NCBI RefSeq assembly: GCF_003633725.1
Contig: NZ_RBIJ01000002.1
Location: forward strand, 130,598-194,597
DNA: 64,000 nt
Direction: 5' to 3'
Source of the DNA: Brockia lithotrophica
GTDB taxonomy: Bacteria > Bacillota > Bacilli > Thermicanales > DSM-22653
Shown here one piece after another: positions 56,169-63,248 of this stretch. The first letter of the stretch is position 1; the number at the start of each line of letters is the position of its first letter. The notes below the pieces were generated by a model. That model was not told the DNA's origin. It made no database searches and saw only the letters and a list, made by a program, of their open reading frames with translations. Both the position numbers and the translations under genes were made by a program.

Positions 56169-57092
56169 TCATACTGGACGCTGCGCCCCCTCCGAAGAAA
56201 GGGAAATCCTGGGGAAAACGACCTCGAAGGCGTCTTGTGCGGACGCAAGCCCTTCTTCAGCCCCCGCCAAGCGCAGCCATACCCGGAGAAACTCCCTTAG
56301 TGGCGGCTCCGAAGAAGAGGAAATGACGACGCCTTTGCTCTTGAGTGCCGTGCGGAATTCCTCCCATGCGGGCGTCGGGGGGAATGCCCGCCATTCGGGA
56401 GAAGAAAACCCGAGGGACTCAAACAGAGCTTCTCGAACGGCAAGTTCTTCTTTTTTCTGCGGGCGCGGAGGAAAGGCGGCGGTGATGTCCATCAAGGCGT
56501 CGTCGACAACTTCCGCAAACGGGAGACTCGGTCCTCCCCGCTCGCCTACGAGAACAACTCCCGTCCCGCCTTCCGGAAGGGAAAGGAATGGGCCGCCGGA
56601 GGGAAATCCGGCACCCTCCCAGGGATACACGATCCATACCTCTTCCTTCCGTTCGCCGGGGACATCGAGGACGCGTTCGGCGGATATGGGGTGCAAAGCC
56701 TCGGGAAAAGGGCCGGACGTTACCAGATAGGCTCGGGCCTTCCCGAGCCGAAGGAGACGTTCGGCAAAGTGGCGGTATACCTCGAGTCGACGCGAGCTGC
56801 GGTAGGGTCCGTAGGGTCCGCCTACGTCCGGCCCTTCGTCCCACGTCAGAGAAAGTTCCCGGGCGAGGGACTGAAGCTCTTCCCACGTGCGGGCACCCGA
56901 CGCCCCGCCGCCGACATCGTAAACGCGAACGACAAAACTTCCCGCTTGCGAACGCGCAAAAATCCAAGAAGCGAGGAGCGCCCCGAGTTCTTCTCCTCTG
57001 AACACCGACGCCCCTTCCCGAAGCACGTACCGCGTTCGCACGCGACCTGCCTGCGCGAAACCGCGCGAAAACCAGTCAATTTCCTCACGCAT
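56169..57092 (-). CDS. Degenerate glutamyl-tRNA-synthetase-like protein lacking catalytic motifs
   Basis: A 307-residue intact gene in the gltX slot between ispF and cysE. By eye it aligns with the catalytic half of GluRS: WIFARSQAGSFVVRVYD (about 43-59) with the ATP-site region, DEGPDVGGPYGPYRSS (85-100) almost identical to GluRS, PFAEVVDDALMDIT (191-204) with NFAVVVDDHLMGIT, then VREALFESLGFSSPEW. But HIGH is replaced by FRGE (31-34), IEDTD by VYDVG, and KLSKRHG by ALKSKGV (249-255). The anticodon-binding half is absent. The ATG at 57092 lies one base after the ispF stop, so it is translated by coupling. It cannot be an ordinary synthetase; its role is unknown. Confidence 0.75.
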   Translation of the reverse strand: MREEIDWFSRGFAQAGRVRTRYVLREGASVFRGEELGALLASWIFARSQAGSFVVRVYDVGGGASGARTWEELQSLARELSLTWDEGPDVGGPYGPYRSSRRLEVYRHFAERLLRLGKARAYLVTSGPFPEALHPISAERVLDVPGERKEEVWIVYPWEGAGFPSGGPFLSLPEGGTGVVLVGERGGPSLPFAEVVDDALMDITAAFPPRPQKKEELAVREALFESLGFSSPEWRAFPPTPAWEEFRTALKSKGVVISSSSEPPLREFLRVWLRLAGAEEGLASAQDAFEVVFPRISLSSEGAQRPV

Positions 57093-57093
57093 G

Positions 57094-57606
57094 TCACCGC
57101 AGTCTCCCTTCGTCGTGCGCACCCGAAACCTCTGAGGAGAAGAGGAGGACGACGGCCCAAGCGGCAATCCCTTCTTTTTTCCCCAAAGCGCCGAGCCTCT
57201 CGGGCGTTGTCGCCTTTACGCTCACGCGCTCCGGCGAAGTGTCGAGGAGTTCGGCGATCCTTTTGCGCATCTCGGGGATATAAGGGGACAGCTTCGGTTC
57301 CTCCGCGACGATCACGGCATCCGCGTTCCCCACCCGGTATCCACGTGCGCGCACGAGATCGAAGGCGTACCGCACGATTTCTCCGCTGTCGAGGTTGCGA
57401 AAGCGGGGATCGGTATTGGGGAAGTGTTCGCCTATATCTCCCAAGGCGAGTGCGCCAAGCAGGGCGTCCGCAAGAGCGTGGAGGAGCACGTCGGCATCCG
57501 AATGGCCTTCCAGCCCGCGATCGTAGGGAATGGAAACTCCCCCCAAGACGAGCGGCCGCATTACGGCAAAGCGGTGTACGTCGTAGCCAATGCCCACCCG
57601 AAACAA
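57094..57606 (-). CDS. ispF: 2-C-methyl-D-erythritol 2,4-cyclodiphosphate synthase
   Basis: 170 residues, non-mevalonate isoprenoid pathway. GIGYDVHRF carries the zinc Asp and His; GHSDADVLLHALADALLGAL and DIGEHFPNTDPRF are diagnostic, as is VKATTPERLGALGKKEGIAA. The TTG at 57606 has AGGAGGG upstream and gives the normal N-terminus (LFRVGIGYDVHRF). It starts 13 bases after ispD and is tightly coupled to the GluRS-like gene. Confidence 0.95.
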   Translation of the reverse strand: MFRVGIGYDVHRFAVMRPLVLGGVSIPYDRGLEGHSDADVLLHALADALLGALALGDIGEHFPNTDPRFRNLDSGEIVRYAFDLVRARGYRVGNADAVIVAEEPKLSPYIPEMRKRIAELLDTSPERVSVKATTPERLGALGKKEGIAAWAVVLLFSSEVSGAHDEGRLR

Positions 57607-57619
57607 GGGCAAACCCTCC

Positions 57620-58384
57620 TCACGGTTCGGCGTCGTATCCCTTTGGCGCGGGTGGAGCGCCCGACTCAACACGGAAACCCTGTCCCTCGGCGTCCTCGGA
57701 TGCAGACAAAACTCGTAGAAGGGCTTCCGCCACGGCGAGATCCTCGGGTGTTGTGAGCTTCAGGTTGTATTCCTCACCTTCCGTCCAAAACACGGGATGG
57801 CCCAGGAGCTCGAAAACGCTCGCCTCGTCCGTGACTTCCCAACCCCGACGTTCTGCCTCTTCCAAGGCGCGCAAAAGATCCGCCCTAGGAAATGCCTGGG
57901 GAGTTTGCACCCGAACGAGACCTTCCCGCTTCGGCGTGCGCAAAACTTGCCGCCCGGAGATTTCCTTGATCGTATCCTTCACGGGAAGGGCCGGTACGAC
58001 GATGCGCCCTTCCCGCGCGTACGCCGCCATCCTTCGGACGAGCGCCTCGCTCACGAGGGGGCGCACGCCGTCGTGTACGAGCACCCCGTGCACCTCCTCG
58101 GACAAGGCGCGAACGCCCAAAAACACGCTGTCTTGCCGGCGTTCCCCGCCCGCAACGATACGAAAACCGCGAATTCCGTAAGCGGCCAAGAGGGAACCTA
58201 CCCGCGGCACATCTTCGCGGCGGACGACGATCACCTTTTCTCCGATTTCCGAAACGCGGGCAAATACTTGAGCCGTACGTACGAGGACGGGAATGCCGGC
58301 GAGGGGGAGAAAGGGCTTCCGCACGTTCCCCCCCATTCGTCTTCCCTCACCGGCCGCCACAAGTACCACACCCACTGTTCCCAT
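57620..58384 (-). CDS. ispD: 2-C-methyl-D-erythritol 4-phosphate cytidylyltransferase
   Basis: 254 residues, makes CDP-methylerythritol for isoprenoids. The CTP-binding start VGVVLVAAGEGRRMGGNVRK, VHDGVRPLVSEALVRRM, the PVKDTIKE segment and VQTPQAFPR are all present. The C-terminus has about 25 extra residues after LAVAEALL, ending close to ispF. ATG 58384 has a purine run (AAAGGGG) at long distance, so the exact start is less certain. Confidence 0.94.
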   Translation of the reverse strand: MGTVGVVLVAAGEGRRMGGNVRKPFLPLAGIPVLVRTAQVFARVSEIGEKVIVVRREDVPRVGSLLAAYGIRGFRIVAGGERRQDSVFLGVRALSEEVHGVLVHDGVRPLVSEALVRRMAAYAREGRIVVPALPVKDTIKEISGRQVLRTPKREGLVRVQTPQAFPRADLLRALEEAERRGWEVTDEASVFELLGHPVFWTEGEEYNLKLTTPEDLAVAEALLRVLSASEDAEGQGFRVESGAPPAPKGYDAEP

Positions 58385-58580
58385 GGAAAAAAGAGGCCCC
58401 TTTCGAGAAGACGAGCTGACGAATCGGCGGCGGACAACGACATTTCGCCCCTCTCGTCCATTGTAGCGGAATTTTGCAAGACGTTCCCCGGATGCGGCGC
58501 ACCTCTGCCCTGTGCGTCGCCCGAGCAAAAAAGGAAGAGCCCACCGCGTGTGCTCTTCCTCGCGTACGAGATCTCGCTCT

Positions 58581-59678
58581 CTACAGGGCCTTTTCGTATA
58601 GCTTTGGCTTTGCGAACACCATCCGTCCGGCGGACGTCTGAAGGACGCTCGTGACGACGACGGCAACTCGCTCCCCCATGTGGGCCTTCCCGTCTTCCAC
58701 GACGATCATCGTCCCGTCCTCGAGGTACGCGACTCCCTGCCCTTCTTCCTTTCCGTCGCGAATGATCTGCACGGTAAGCTCCTCGCCCGGAAGTACGATC
58801 GGTTTGAGGGCGTTGGCGAGGTCGTTTACGTTCAGCACGGGGATGCCCTGAAGCTCGCAAACTTTGTTTAGGTTGAAATCCGTAGTAAGGATCGACGCCC
58901 CGAGTTTCTTGGCCAGCTTTACGAGACGCATGTCCACGGGGCCGTCCCCCGCCTCGCCTTCGTAAATGAGGAGCGGTGCCTTCTTGGCCTTTTGCATGCG
59001 CGCGAGAATATCTAACCCTCTACGTCCGCGATTTCGCTTAAGGACGTCGGCGGAATCGGCGATGTGCTGAAGTTCCTCGAGAACAAAGAGGGGAACGAGG
59101 AGCACGCCCTCAAGAAATCCCGTGTCTAAAATGTCCGCAATGCGGCCGTCGATGATCACGCTTGTGTCCAAAATCTTTATGCTCGCCTTGGACCGTTCGG
59201 CGAGCGCCGCCCGGTCTTCCCGATCTTTTTCTCGCTCGCGTCCGCGTTCGCGTGCGCGTCCGACTTGAAAGAAAGCGAAGAGTTCGTCTTTTTTGCTCGC
59301 CCCTACTTTAAATCCGAGGTACCCCAAAAAGACGGATAAGAAAATGGGCACGAAGAGATTCAACACGGGAACTTCTTTGAGGGGCCAGTACAAAAGGAGA
59401 GAAACGAGAAGACCGACAAAAAGTCCGGCAATCCCGGTCAGGAGGTCGCCCGCCGGGATGCGGGTGAGCGCCTCCTCGAGGCGAAGAACCCCGCGTTCAA
59501 AGGGAGAAGCCAAGAGGAAGGAAATCCCGAGAAAAAGAAGCCCGCCTACCCCCGCACCGACGAAGGGGGCATATACGGTGTTTACCGGCTCCCAAAACTG
59601 AAAAAGCGTCGTCACGAAATACCCGAGTGCACCGCCCAAGAGGACCATGAAGAGTTGAAAGGCGCGACGCATCAGCAT
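58581..59678 (-). CDS. Membrane PIN-TRAM protein (YacL type)
   Basis: 365 residues. Four transmembrane segments in the first 125 residues, a charged Arg/Glu linker (RARERGREREKDRED), a PIN nuclease-like domain starting ILDTSVIIDGRIADI with Asp171, and a C-terminal TRAM domain (PGEELTVQIIRDGKEEGQGV). The acidic PIN residues are kept, so RNA cleavage at the membrane is possible, but no function is established for YacL. The ATG at 59678 has GGGAGGTGA nine bases upstream. It lies beside ispD as in B. subtilis; disA and radA are not here, and carD is upstream instead. Confidence 0.9.
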   Translation of the reverse strand: MLMRRAFQLFMVLLGGALGYFVTTLFQFWEPVNTVYAPFVGAGVGGLLFLGISFLLASPFERGVLRLEEALTRIPAGDLLTGIAGLFVGLLVSLLLYWPLKEVPVLNLFVPIFLSVFLGYLGFKVGASKKDELFAFFQVGRARERGREREKDREDRAALAERSKASIKILDTSVIIDGRIADILDTGFLEGVLLVPLFVLEELQHIADSADVLKRNRGRRGLDILARMQKAKKAPLLIYEGEAGDGPVDMRLVKLAKKLGASILTTDFNLNKVCELQGIPVLNVNDLANALKPIVLPGEELTVQIIRDGKEEGQGVAYLEDGTMIVVEDGKAHMGERVAVVVTSVLQTSAGRMVFAKPKLYEKAL

Positions 59679-59783
59679 GTGAAGGATCACCTCCCGATAC
59701 ACATTGTGGGCGGTTTTCTCGCGCCCAAAACCCTACGGCCTCCCCTTTTGCGGATCGGGAGTCTCCGCAAGTTTGTATACGCC

Positions 59784-60269
59784 TCACTCTCCGAGACACA
59801 CCCAGCCTTCGATCCATGCTCCCGCCTGCTCGAAATCTACGGAAAGCACGAAGGCAACTTCACTTACGAGAATTTGCCGGGCAAGCTCGTAGATCTTCCG
59901 TTCTCCTGCGGACAATCCCCTCCGTTTATCCCTTCGATGGAGTGTCCGAAACACGCTGGCCACCTCGAACAGGTCGCCCGTCCGAATCCGTTCCTGGTAG
60001 CTCCGTTGCCTGTGGCTCCACTGTAAGGACTCTTCCTCGTCCGGGGCGCTCAAAATCTCCGGGAGCACGTCCACCTTGGAACGATCGACGACTTCCCGTA
60101 CTCCGAGGCTTTCCACACGGTCCACGGGAAACATGACCTTCATCGAACCCAGGGGAAGGTAGACGATGTAATACGCCTTGCGTTCCCCCATGAGCTCCTT
60201 TTCTTCGATGCCCTCGACAATTCCGGCTCCATGGAGGGGATAGACCACCCGATCGCCAACGCGAAACAT
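59784..60269 (-). CDS. carD: CarD-family transcriptional regulator
   Basis: 161 residues. The N-terminal polymerase-interaction (Tudor-like) domain has FRVGDRVVYPLHGAGIVEGI and YYIVYLPLGSMKVMFPVDRV; the C-terminal helical domain ends with ARQILVSEVAFVLSV. CarD proteins bind the RNA polymerase beta subunit and stabilise open promoter complexes, often at rRNA promoters. The ATG at 60269 has AAAGGAGGGG upstream and a promoter 30 bases away. Confidence 0.93.
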   Translation of the reverse strand: MFRVGDRVVYPLHGAGIVEGIEEKELMGERKAYYIVYLPLGSMKVMFPVDRVESLGVREVVDRSKVDVLPEILSAPDEEESLQWSHRQRSYQERIRTGDLFEVASVFRTLHRRDKRRGLSAGERKIYELARQILVSEVAFVLSVDFEQAGAWIEGWVCLGE

Positions 60270-60406: not shown

Positions 60407-60433
60407 AAAAAGAGACCTCCCCGAAGGGAGGCC
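60407..60433 (-). terminator. Terminator after the LPxTG protein gene
   Basis: GGCCTCCC and GGGAGGTC pair around a TTCG tetraloop on the minus strand and are followed by TCTTTTTG. It ends the surface-protein transcript before the carD promoter. Confidence 0.88.
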
Positions 60434-60449: not shown

Positions 60450-61256
60450 CTAGTCTTCCTCGCGCCGGCTACGCCAGAGAAAGAAGGTTCCCAACCCAAG
60501 GAGCGCACTGGCGCCTCCGATAAGGGGTAGAGAACCTGGCACTTCCCCGGTACGTGGAAGTACGGGAGATTCCCCACGCACTTCCTGCCCTTGCCGCGGC
60601 GGAGGCTCTTCCGTAACGGGCTGCAGGGTAGGTTCCGCAGGCGCAGGCGGTGCCGGCGGCTGCTCAAGCGGTTGCTCAGGAGACGGCTGCTCGGGCGGCT
60701 TCGGCTGCTCGGGTGGCTTCGGCTGCTCGGGTGGCTTCGGTTGCTCGGGTGGCTTCGGCTGCTCGGGTGGCTTCGGTTGCTCGGGTGGCTTCGGTTGCTC
60801 AGGGGCCGGTTGCTCGGGTGGCTTCGGTTGCTCGGGTGGCTTCGGCTGCTCGGGTGGCTTCGGTTGCTCGGGTGGTTGCCCCGGGCAGAGCTTGCACGTG
60901 TCGTTTAAGAACTGATCGCCGCCGTTGCCCAAATAGCCGATGGGGTGACCCGGAGGTTGAAAGGTTTCCGGTCCCAAGTTGGGCAGAGAAGGGAGAGTAG
61001 GAAGCGGTGGAAAAGAAACAAACGTGACCGTCGTCGTCGCGCGTTGTTCCGTCTTTCCGATCCCGGATGTAGTGGTCGTAAGGTCGACGTTCACCTGTGT
61101 TGCCGCGTTTGGCGATAGAAGGCCGCGCAATTCGGCGACGAGGTCGTCGAGGGAGTTCGAAGCGTATGCGTGGGGTTTCCCTACGCCGTACAGAACGAGG
61201 GACACTCCGACCCCTGCGAGGAGGAGACGCGCGCGCGGGCGTCGGAAAAAGGACAA
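60450..61256 (-). CDS. LPxTG-type surface protein with proline-rich repeat stalk
   Basis: 268 residues. A signal peptide (about 1-32, ending HAYA) is followed by a short N-terminal module (NSLDDLVAELRGLLSP) that resembles the start of the three small secreted proteins next door, then a threonine-rich stretch, a pair of cysteines (CKLC), a run of about a dozen KPPEQP-type repeats, and a sortase signal: LPRTG, a hydrophobic segment (SLPLIGGASALLGLGTFFLW) and the tail RSRREED. It should be anchored to peptidoglycan by a sortase, which is not in this window. The TTG at 61256 has GGGGGGATAGGG upstream. It is probably co-transcribed with the gene at 61294. Confidence 0.85.
   Translation of the reverse strand: MSFFRRPRARLLLAGVGVSLVLYGVGKPHAYASNSLDDLVAELRGLLSPNAATQVNVDLTTTTSGIGKTEQRATTTVTFVSFPPLPTLPSLPNLGPETFQPPGHPIGYLGNGGDQFLNDTCKLCPGQPPEQPKPPEQPKPPEQPKPPEQPAPEQPKPPEQPKPPEQPKPPEQPKPPEQPKPPEQPKPPEQPSPEQPLEQPPAPPAPAEPTLQPVTEEPPPRQGQEVRGESPVLPRTGEVPGSLPLIGGASALLGLGTFFLWRSRREED
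60680..60885 (-). repeat. 18-base tandem repeat coding KPPEQP
   Basis: About eleven near-identical 18-base units in frame, with two shortened or altered units (PPEQPA-PEQPK, PPEQPS-PEQP) that break the periodicity. The number of units may vary between strains by slippage. The repeat encodes the extended stalk of the surface protein and is not a CRISPR array. Confidence 0.93.
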
Positions 61257-61293
61257 CCCTATCCCCCCTTTTCCATGCGGAATTCGGGGTACC

Positions 61294-61692
61294 TTACTTC
61301 CCGCTTAGAGAGCTTCCGAGCCCCGCAAGAAGTGCCCCGAGCGCCCGCGTCGTCGACGCAAGGCCGTTGTCCGCCTTCACCCGGGAAGAGGCGTAGTACT
61401 CTCCGTACGTCACGCATGCTCCGGCTTCCGTGCTGCCGCCGAGAAGCGAACTTACTACACCCGTCAGACCCCCGGCAGTTTCCTTCGTCGCCGCAACCGC
61501 CGTCACACGTACGCCGTCGGAGGTTTGGATTCCCGCTTTCGCCTGTGCGTTGATTTCCGTGGAACCCACGAGTTGCCCAACGGCGGTCAAAAGGTCACCC
61601 AACGCGTTCCCCTGCGCAAACGCAGGGATCACAGGAAGGAGCAACGAAGCAGACAAGGCAAACGCGGCTACTCCTCGGCGGACAATACGCAT
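61294..61692 (-). CDS. Small secreted protein, AQGNALGDLL family, copy 1
   Basis: 132 residues. The signal peptide ends at AFA, and the mature protein begins QGNALGDLLTAVGQLVG. It is very close to the protein at 62345-62740 through most of its length (TEINAQAKAGIQ, VTAVAATKETAGGLTGVVSS, NGLASTTRALGALLAGLGSS). Gly/Leu/Ala-rich segments alternate with polar ones, and there is one cysteine (AGACVTYG). The ATG at 61692 has GGGAGGGA upstream. It stands 37 bases before the LPxTG gene and has its own promoter. I recognise no known family; a structural surface role is inference. Confidence 0.82.
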   Translation of the reverse strand: MRIVRRGVAAFALSASLLLPVIPAFAQGNALGDLLTAVGQLVGSTEINAQAKAGIQTSDGVRVTAVAATKETAGGLTGVVSSLLGGSTEAGACVTYGEYYASSRVKADNGLASTTRALGALLAGLGSSLSGK

Positions 61693-61789
61693 GCCGATCC
61701 CTCCCACGAGGTGTAAGATTTTGAAAACGGGCCATCCACTTTAGAGGCGCATCTTTCGGATTTATATTCCTAGGACAGCCCTACGACGA

Positions 61790-61818
61790 ACTCTAGCACA
61801 CGGCTCGCCAAGGTTCAA
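61790..61818 (-). promoter_or_regulatory. Possible promoter of copy 1 and the LPxTG gene
   Basis: TTGAAC, 17 bases, TAGAGT on the minus strand, just after the terminator at 61833-61867. It would give a leader of about 90 bases that contains a TTCCTAGGAC palindrome at 61767-61776. Confidence 0.5.
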
Positions 61819-61832
61819 GCTCTGCCTCCCAG

Positions 61833-61867
61833 GAAAAAGGCGGGTAGCTTTAGGCTACCCGCCTTTT
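61833..61867 (-). terminator. Strong terminator after copy 2
   Basis: AAAAGGCGGGTAGC and GCTACCCGCCTTTT form a perfect 14-base-pair stem with a five-base loop and T runs on both sides. It divides the surface cluster into two transcripts. Confidence 0.92.
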
Positions 61868-61890
61868 GTTCTTCCTCGGGAACACTCGGA

Positions 61891-62286
61891 TTACTTTCCG
61901 AGAACCCCACCCAAAAGTCCCGCCAAACCGGCGGAGAGGGCACGGACCGAGGAAGCAAGGCCGTAGTCTCCGTTCGTGTAGGCACCGGCGGAGAGGTTGT
62001 TGGGGCCCTTGATCTCCGCAGCAGTGCTGTAGCTCCCGCCCAAAAGGCCGCCTACGAGGCCGTTCAGGCCGGTCTGCTTGTTCCCGTAGGTCGCCTGCGC
62101 CGTAAGAACGGCGTTCGGCGTGGTAGCCTCTACGTAGCTCACGGCGCCGATGTCGTGGTCACCTACCAATTGCCCTACCGCCGTGAGGAGGTCGCCGAGG
62201 GCGTTCCCCTGGGCAAACGCCAGGCCGCCGCCGGCAAAGAGAACGAGAGCCAATACGGCCACAACGACTCCCATGCGTACCTTCAT
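61891..62286 (-). CDS. Small secreted protein, AQGNALGDLL family, copy 2
   Basis: 131 residues, more divergent than the other two copies. The signal peptide ends at AFA, and the first mature 17 residues, QGNALGDLLTAVGQLVG, are identical to the others. The middle differs (VSYVEATTPNAVLTAQATYG), while the end keeps the plan (YGLASSVRALSAGLAGLLGG, then VLGK). No cysteine. The ATG at 62286 follows GGGGGGAAGGG. It is followed by a strong terminator and probably shares a transcript with copy 3. Confidence 0.82.
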   Translation of the reverse strand: MKVRMGVVVAVLALVLFAGGGLAFAQGNALGDLLTAVGQLVGDHDIGAVSYVEATTPNAVLTAQATYGNKQTGLNGLVGGLLGGSYSTAAEIKGPNNLSAGAYTNGDYGLASSVRALSAGLAGLLGGVLGK

Positions 62287-62344
62287 CGTTTCCCTTCCCC
62301 CCGCTTGTTGAGGTAGTCAGACTCCCGCTCCGAATTCCTTTGGC

Positions 62345-62740
62345 TTACTTCCCGGCCAACGCGCTGCCGAGCCCCGCAAGAAGCGCCCCAAGCGCCCGCG
62401 TCGTCGATGCGAGGCCCCAGTCGGCGTTCACGCTCGCCTTAGCCGAATACTGATCGTACGTCGCGTACGCTCCCGCCTGAGTGCTCCCGCCCATGAGGGA
62501 GGTCACGACCCCCGTGAGACCGCCAGCCGTCTCCTTCGTCGCCGCAACCGCCGTCACGCTGACGTCGCCCGTCTGGATGGCCGCCTTCGCTTGCGCGTTT
62601 ACCTCCGTAGAGCCGACGAGCTGACCTACCGCCGTCAGAAGGTCCCCCAACGCGTTCCCCTGCGCAAACGCGGGGACAACGGGGAGGAGCAGGGCTACGG
62701 ACAAAACCGCCGCCAAGAGACCCTTCTGCCCTACTTTCAC
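62345..62740 (-). CDS. Small secreted protein, AQGNALGDLL family, copy 3
   Basis: 131 residues, nearly the same as copy 1 in both protein and DNA around the signal-peptide junction, which suggests a recent duplication or gene conversion. After AFA the mature part starts QGNALGDLLTAVGQLVG; it lacks the cysteine of copy 1 (AGAYATYD instead). The GTG at 62740 has GAGGAGGGA upstream. It is preceded by another small secreted protein gene on the same strand. Confidence 0.82.
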   Translation of the reverse strand: MKVGQKGLLAAVLSVALLLPVVPAFAQGNALGDLLTAVGQLVGSTEVNAQAKAAIQTGDVSVTAVAATKETAGGLTGVVTSLMGGSTQAGAYATYDQYSAKASVNADWGLASTTRALGALLAGLGSALAGK

Positions 62741-62791
62741 GGCCGAATCCCTCCTCACCTAAGGTTTGTGTACGAACGCCCGGAGCTTGTC

Positions 62792-63091
62792 CTACTTTCC
62801 GTCCGGCAGCTTGGGCAACCACACCTGCGTCGAGGATTCTGCGCGGATGGTGACCCCGTTCTTCTCGCCTACGAAGGACGCAGAGGAGCCGTACCTCCCC
62901 GGCGAAACTTCGGTGAGCGGGGACACCACCTCCACGCTCTGGCCGTTCCAATCCACCCGTACGCTCGACGACCCGCTCAGGTCGCCAAAGGACCAGGAAT
63001 TCAATTCGGAAATCCAGGACCACAGGGCGCCCCATCCTGCCGGAAGGAACGCGAGAAGGAGGAGCGTCGCGAGTGCCGCACCTCGCCGCAT
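62792..63091 (-). CDS. Small secreted protein of unknown function
   Basis: 99 residues with a clear signal peptide (MRRGAALATLLLLAFLPAGW) and a mature part rich in Ser, Trp and beta-type residues (LWSWISELNSWSFGDLSG, then SSSVRVDWNGQSVEVVS). It does not share the QGNALGDLL start of the three following genes but is similar in size, export and position. The ATG at 63091 has GAAGGGGGTGA upstream. It is first in this cluster; an AT-rich stretch near 63160-63200 probably holds the promoter, but I could not place one. Function unknown. Confidence 0.78.
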   Translation of the reverse strand: MRRGAALATLLLLAFLPAGWGALWSWISELNSWSFGDLSGSSSVRVDWNGQSVEVVSPLTEVSPGRYGSSASFVGEKNGVTIRAESSTQVWLPKLPDGK

Positions 63092-63248
63092 CGACTCACC
63101 CCCTTCCCGGAGGACAACCCGCGCCTATAACGCTATCAGACAAGGGGGAAGAGAAGCAAGACGAATTCCTATGAATTTTTTTCTCCCTCAAGTTAACTTT
63201 TTTCCGTATCTCGGTGCCGTGCAGGGGAAACGCCTTTGCGAGTCCCCC

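Follow-up and report, generated by a model that had tools for sequence, protein, structure and literature searches.

Small exported proteins beside an LPxTG gene in Brockia lithotrophica: candidate subunits of an extracellular assembly

The window, by which we mean the whole 64,000-nucleotide stretch of Brockia lithotrophica DNA analysed here (contig NZ_RBIJ01000002.1; G+C content 61%; host genome 1.87 Mb in 12 contigs), raises the question of what role might be played by a group of related small secreted proteins encoded next to a putative wall-anchored protein. A B. lithotrophica-related MAG has been described (PMC5928048). The first-pass annotation reported three exported proteins of 131–132 residues adjacent to an LPxTG protein and an exported protein of 99 residues, and the positions of the five genes, all on the minus strand, confirm this arrangement. 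Along that strand they are C (62792–63091), encoding the 99-residue exported, mostly β protein; A (62345–62740; 131 residues from a GTG at 62740, with a possible alternative start at 62758 that would give 137 residues); B (61891–62286; 131 residues, start at 62286); A′ (61294–61692; 132 residues, start at 61692); and the LPxTG gene (60450–61256), whose 268-residue product comprises a signal peptide, a head of ∼90 residues with a Cys pair, a PPEQPK spacer and an LPRTG motif. Neighbouring genes at 56169–60269 include a CarD-family regulator and PIN/TRAM, ispD and ispF look-alikes (assigned by eye). The surroundings of the module look the same in the sister genome (G001), which indicates that it does not lie on an evident mobile element.

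The signal peptides of the three small proteins end in AFA and are followed by QGNALGDLLTAVGQLVG; this 17-residue mature start is exactly identical in all three and the C-terminal part of each mature protein is rich in Gly and Leu, both as first described. Within the shared stretch 38–42 of the 51 bases are identical between copies (9–13 differences), and the many silent differences argue that its identity is maintained by selection at the protein level and not by recent copying. Comparison of the window genome (G000) with its sister gave dN/dS values of 0.036, 0.050 and 0.059 for the three small genes and 0.165 for C, low values that mark all four as real genes under selection. Gly, Ala, Ser and Thr make up 48–61% of the composition, charges are few and the invariant columns of A and B consist of Gly, Leu, Ala and Ser. 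The other two precursors are 76% and 45% identical to the first copy over their whole length; for the mature proteins alone, identity is 82% between the two A-type copies and 48% between the middle copy (B) and the first. The three had been described as paralogues; they comprise two anciently diverged types, A and B, together with a later, lineage-specific duplicate of A (A′).

A strong terminator (61835–61867, minus strand) separates B from A′, with a stem that is constant and a loop that differs in three strains. It is followed by a candidate promoter (61790–61818, minus strand; TTGAAC-N17-TAGAGT in the window, TTGAA(C/T) overall) with TGC before the second hexamer and identical spacing in the window and in loci L018 and L017. 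A second candidate promoter, upstream of C (63130–63159, minus strand; TTGC[T/C][T/C]-N18-T[A/C]GCGT, with TGA before the second hexamer), matches the consensus weakly and keeps its position and spacing in the same three loci; a terminator-like hairpin (60414–60433, minus strand) is seen in the sequence 3′ of the LPxTG gene. The conserved terminator and the promoter-like site after it bear out the earlier proposal of two transcripts and point to a widely conserved unit 1 (C-A-B) and a lineage-specific unit 2 (A′-LPxTG). In L017, from the MAG Clostridiales bacterium RBS10-35, six-frame translation recovered an intact unit 1, a frameshifted A′ and a broken LPxTG gene, implying that the units can be lost separately. 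This locus (L017:1150–4409) runs out into transposase-like sequence.

AlphaFold2 placed the elements of A and B in the same order, with a helix at either end, a third in the middle and a pair of strands on each side of the middle helix; confidence was moderate (mean pLDDT of 65 and 74, respectively). The strands alternate in the modelled topology, and simple hydrophobic moments match most of the predicted elements. The subunit topology is predicted, at moderate confidence, to be helix-hairpin-helix-hairpin-helix. A Foldseek search of the PDB with these moderate-confidence models gave no match with E below 0.3 for either protein, a sequence-profile search of the PDB gave none, and Pfam, NCBIfam and PHROGs yielded weak matches only, with the small proteins never exceeding a curated cut-off; the YbcJ-like and other weak NCBIfam and Pfam matches lie far below cut-off and were discarded. 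Profile comparison did not support a single superfamily uniting A/B with C. These negatives agree with the initial impression that no described family is represented, and the module could serve to define two protein families for which neither Pfam nor NCBIfam has a profile.

A/B profile searches covered roughly 900 different genomes and found clear relatives in only six, from two classes: the window genome and its sister, Kyrpidia tusciae (G025), a second member of that genus (G059), a member of another family of the same class (G104) and a member of another class (G709). The module is missing from nearly all of the others; the RBS10-35 locus is an additional occurrence. Each genome with clear A/B genes has at least one gene of each type, and also C. 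Among 300 genomes of the class, a C profile gave clear matches only in G000, G001, G025, G059 and G104, exactly the genomes with A/B genes, and the next-best match (E = 2.6e-4) is partial and contains a stop. Some of the matched genomes had contributed to this profile. It did not contain the K. tusciae gene, which was found directly after B with E = 4.1e-19, nor the second G059 copy, likewise recovered independently. G709 has C as well. Gene order is C-A-B-A′-LPxTG in the window, the sister genome and L017, C-A-B in G709, A-B-C in G104 and on contig 27 of G059, and A-B-C-LPxTG-sortase in K. tusciae; contig 49 of G059 carries A-B-C followed by an anchor-like protein truncated by the contig end. 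The C copy on contig 49 (L021:7097–7486) has an internal stop; the contig 27 copy is intact. The invariant core is thus C, A and B, which makes the 99-residue protein a fixed partner. A′ is genus-specific so far.

A tree of the subunits, small and with many weakly supported inner branches, divides into type A (window genes at 62345 and 61294) and type B (61891); in both, the genus of the window clusters with G709, apart from the sequences of Kyrpidia and G104. Such parallel trees of ancient paralogues imply that the pair has been inherited together. The presence of the genes in another class, together with their absence from a congener of G709 (G781), makes transfer of the whole unit likely and suggests that the module has moved horizontally as a unit. 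Searches of plasmid, phage and viral-contig sequences for the module found none, and an origin from such elements was set aside. A single remote A/B relative (E = 1.4e-8) lies directly 3′ of an ECF-type sigma factor gene in G566 (L066:7456–8587); this weak homolog was left out of the argument.

The LPxTG protein of the window carries an LPRTG sorting signal recognized by TIGR01167 above cut-off (E = 5.9e-5) and by a sorting-signal profile that contained this sequence (2.7e-20); with this signal and the single sortase of the genome, it qualifies as a sortase-anchored protein. The sorting-signal profile found four LPxTG proteins in the window genome. The three others, two of them in tandem (L098:693–2912 and L099:1760–6025), use the same sortase, and these additional finds with the better profile led us to reject a one-sortase-one-substrate system. 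In the family of the window, both module-bearing genomes have one sortase each and G002–G004 have neither module nor sortase; within Kyrpidia, K. tusciae has both and G044 neither. The one clear LPxTG gene that the profile detected in K. tusciae, which has 3,401 genes in total (PMC3236038), is located at the module. Chance adjacency of the LPxTG gene is unlikely in either lineage (∼1 in 1,000 and ∼1 in 200, estimated by simple counting).

A conserved link to an LPxTG gene, whose absence the first-pass annotation had named as evidence against its view, is kept in the genus of the window and in Kyrpidia (with the sortase adjacent in K. tusciae), but it is not universal: in G104 and G709 the module has no LPxTG gene alongside, and these two genomes encode no sortase. 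The LPxTG gene is an optional addition: it is lacking in genomes devoid of a sortase, and only in such genomes does the module occur without an anchor. In the incomplete G059 MAG an anchor-like gene is present and a sortase was not found. The K. tusciae sortase scores above cut-off with the SrtD (class D) model; for that of the window genome, the class C and class E models give matches that stay below cut-off. By eye, neither the spacers (PPEQPK versus GGGSGGGETNPGGG) nor the anchor heads show evident similarity, and the anchors may accordingly have been recruited separately. A close Cys pair ends all three heads before the spacer (DTCKLC, GGCSAGPC and GSCGGC). The subunit helix opens the Kyrpidia-type anchor of L021 (26.8 bits, p = 0.0002), the K. 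tusciae anchor has weak copies of this helix only (p = 0.02) and the window anchor head showed no detectable similarity to the subunits, so that its interpretation as a subunit domain was dropped. Transcribed divergently from the module, and only beside LPxTG-bearing Kyrpidia loci, are genes for large secreted Ser/Ala/Pro-rich proteins of 657 and 518 residues with no Pfam match [L019:7393–9366 (+) and L021:4057–5613 (−)], which may be a further part there.

The fixed triplet, the unlike paralogues sharing a helix, their composition, the strength of the constraint and a link to a wall anchor that recurs lead us to propose, with roughly even confidence, that a single extracellular assembly has A, B and C as its subunits and is tethered to the wall where a sortase is present; a fibre or coat formed by the module proteins is plausible. 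From their sequences, each protein would leave the cell by the Sec route and lose its signal peptide to signal peptidase, after which the mature proteins would co-assemble non-covalently outside the cell. A and B would act as obligate unlike partners, each with the common N-terminal amphipathic helix and two small-residue-rich β-hairpins, and C would be a third, mostly β subunit. Linkage suggests that in lineages with a sortase the adjacent LPxTG protein, with its long proline- or glycine-rich spacer, is joined to the cell wall and holds the assembly through its head. In sortase-less lineages the assembly might be loosely attached or released. A′, cotranscribed with the anchor, plausibly joins anchor to assembly. 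A speculative role in hot mineral habitats would be that of a surface layer or fibre used to attach or protect the cell. The adjacency of an LPxTG gene in two lineages with sortases of different classes, the restriction of anchorless modules to sortase-less genomes and the subunit helix at the start of the L021 anchor support the proposal; the moderate AlphaFold2 confidence, the lack of a matching solved fold, the dissimilarity of the window anchor head to the subunits, a patchy distribution that would fit a toxin too and the at least three other substrates of the window sortase count against it. More tentatively, the module may be an undescribed mobile, self-assembling three-component extracellular polymer (an A/B copolymer plus C) of thermophilic Bacillota, possibly coupled twice independently to a sortase tether.

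That same patchy, apparently transferred distribution, with small amphipathic helices rich in Gly and Leu, might be expected if A and B formed a two-component membrane-active bacteriocin or toxin, with C providing immunity or an accessory function and the LPxTG protein retaining it at the surface. We think this unlikely, given that the genes flanking the module include none for transport, processing or membrane immunity in any species and that conservation within the genus is strong (dN/dS 0.04–0.06); Pfam and NCBIfam scans likewise gave no match to a bacteriocin family, membership of which the first-pass annotation had named as evidence against its own view. Soluble secreted proteins that bind, for example, minerals or peptides and act singly, beside an unrelated LPxTG neighbour, would be consistent with a model that can be read as a compact α/β domain and with the missing anchor in G104 and G709. 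The invariant columns hold no ligand-like set, however, and the strict co-occurrence of C, A and B and the anchor adjacency in two lineages also count against independent binders, an explanation that is likewise unlikely.

Spore-surface or sporulation-specific proteins seem less likely still. K. tusciae sporulates (PMC3236038) and B. lithotrophica has been described as spore-forming (PMC5928048), but nearly all other Bacillota searched lack the module, although many of them are bound to be spore formers. Its proteins have Sec signal peptides, and the promoter of unit 2, which is conserved, looks like one of the vegetative sigma-70 type. On present evidence, extracellular co-assembly appears to be a better fit than any of these three alternatives.

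Among known surface systems, TasA/camelysin proteins (PF12389) of Bacilli are exported and assemble non-covalently into fibres, the latter being a property only proposed for the module. The PF12389 match is below cut-off (12.6 bits versus 22.5, E = 0.12) and covers residues 2–40 of B, mostly signal peptide, and the moderate-confidence models gave no significant Foldseek match in the PDB. The Streptomyces chaplins, with short ChpD–H and sortase-anchored long ChpA–C, combine several small hydrophobic secreted paralogues with a longer family member whose sorting signal tethers the layer (PMC5618241), a plan that the module may share. However, a Pfam scan of 13 module members found no chaplin (PF03777), the module subunits are about twice as long, the module also occurs without any sortase and the subunit motif is recognizable in the anchor only in L021 (weakly in K. 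tusciae, not in the window). Failing the defining profile, the module is not a chaplin system; chaplins would be its nearest working analogue. In the Streptomyces rodlins RdlA and RdlB, two secreted paralogues contribute non-redundantly to a single surface layer (PMC5618241). Rodlins are more than 90% alike and A and B less than 50%. Rodlins are not known to have a fixed third partner. A search of the literature on Kyrpidia surface structures found nothing relevant.

If the assembly is real, it would be a further, unrelated case of the chaplin plan, in which small secreted subunits are combined with a wall-anchored tether, in thermophilic Bacillota. Genomes in which these subunits have an anchor and genomes in which they lack one offer a natural comparison, and with K. 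tusciae in culture the prediction is testable.
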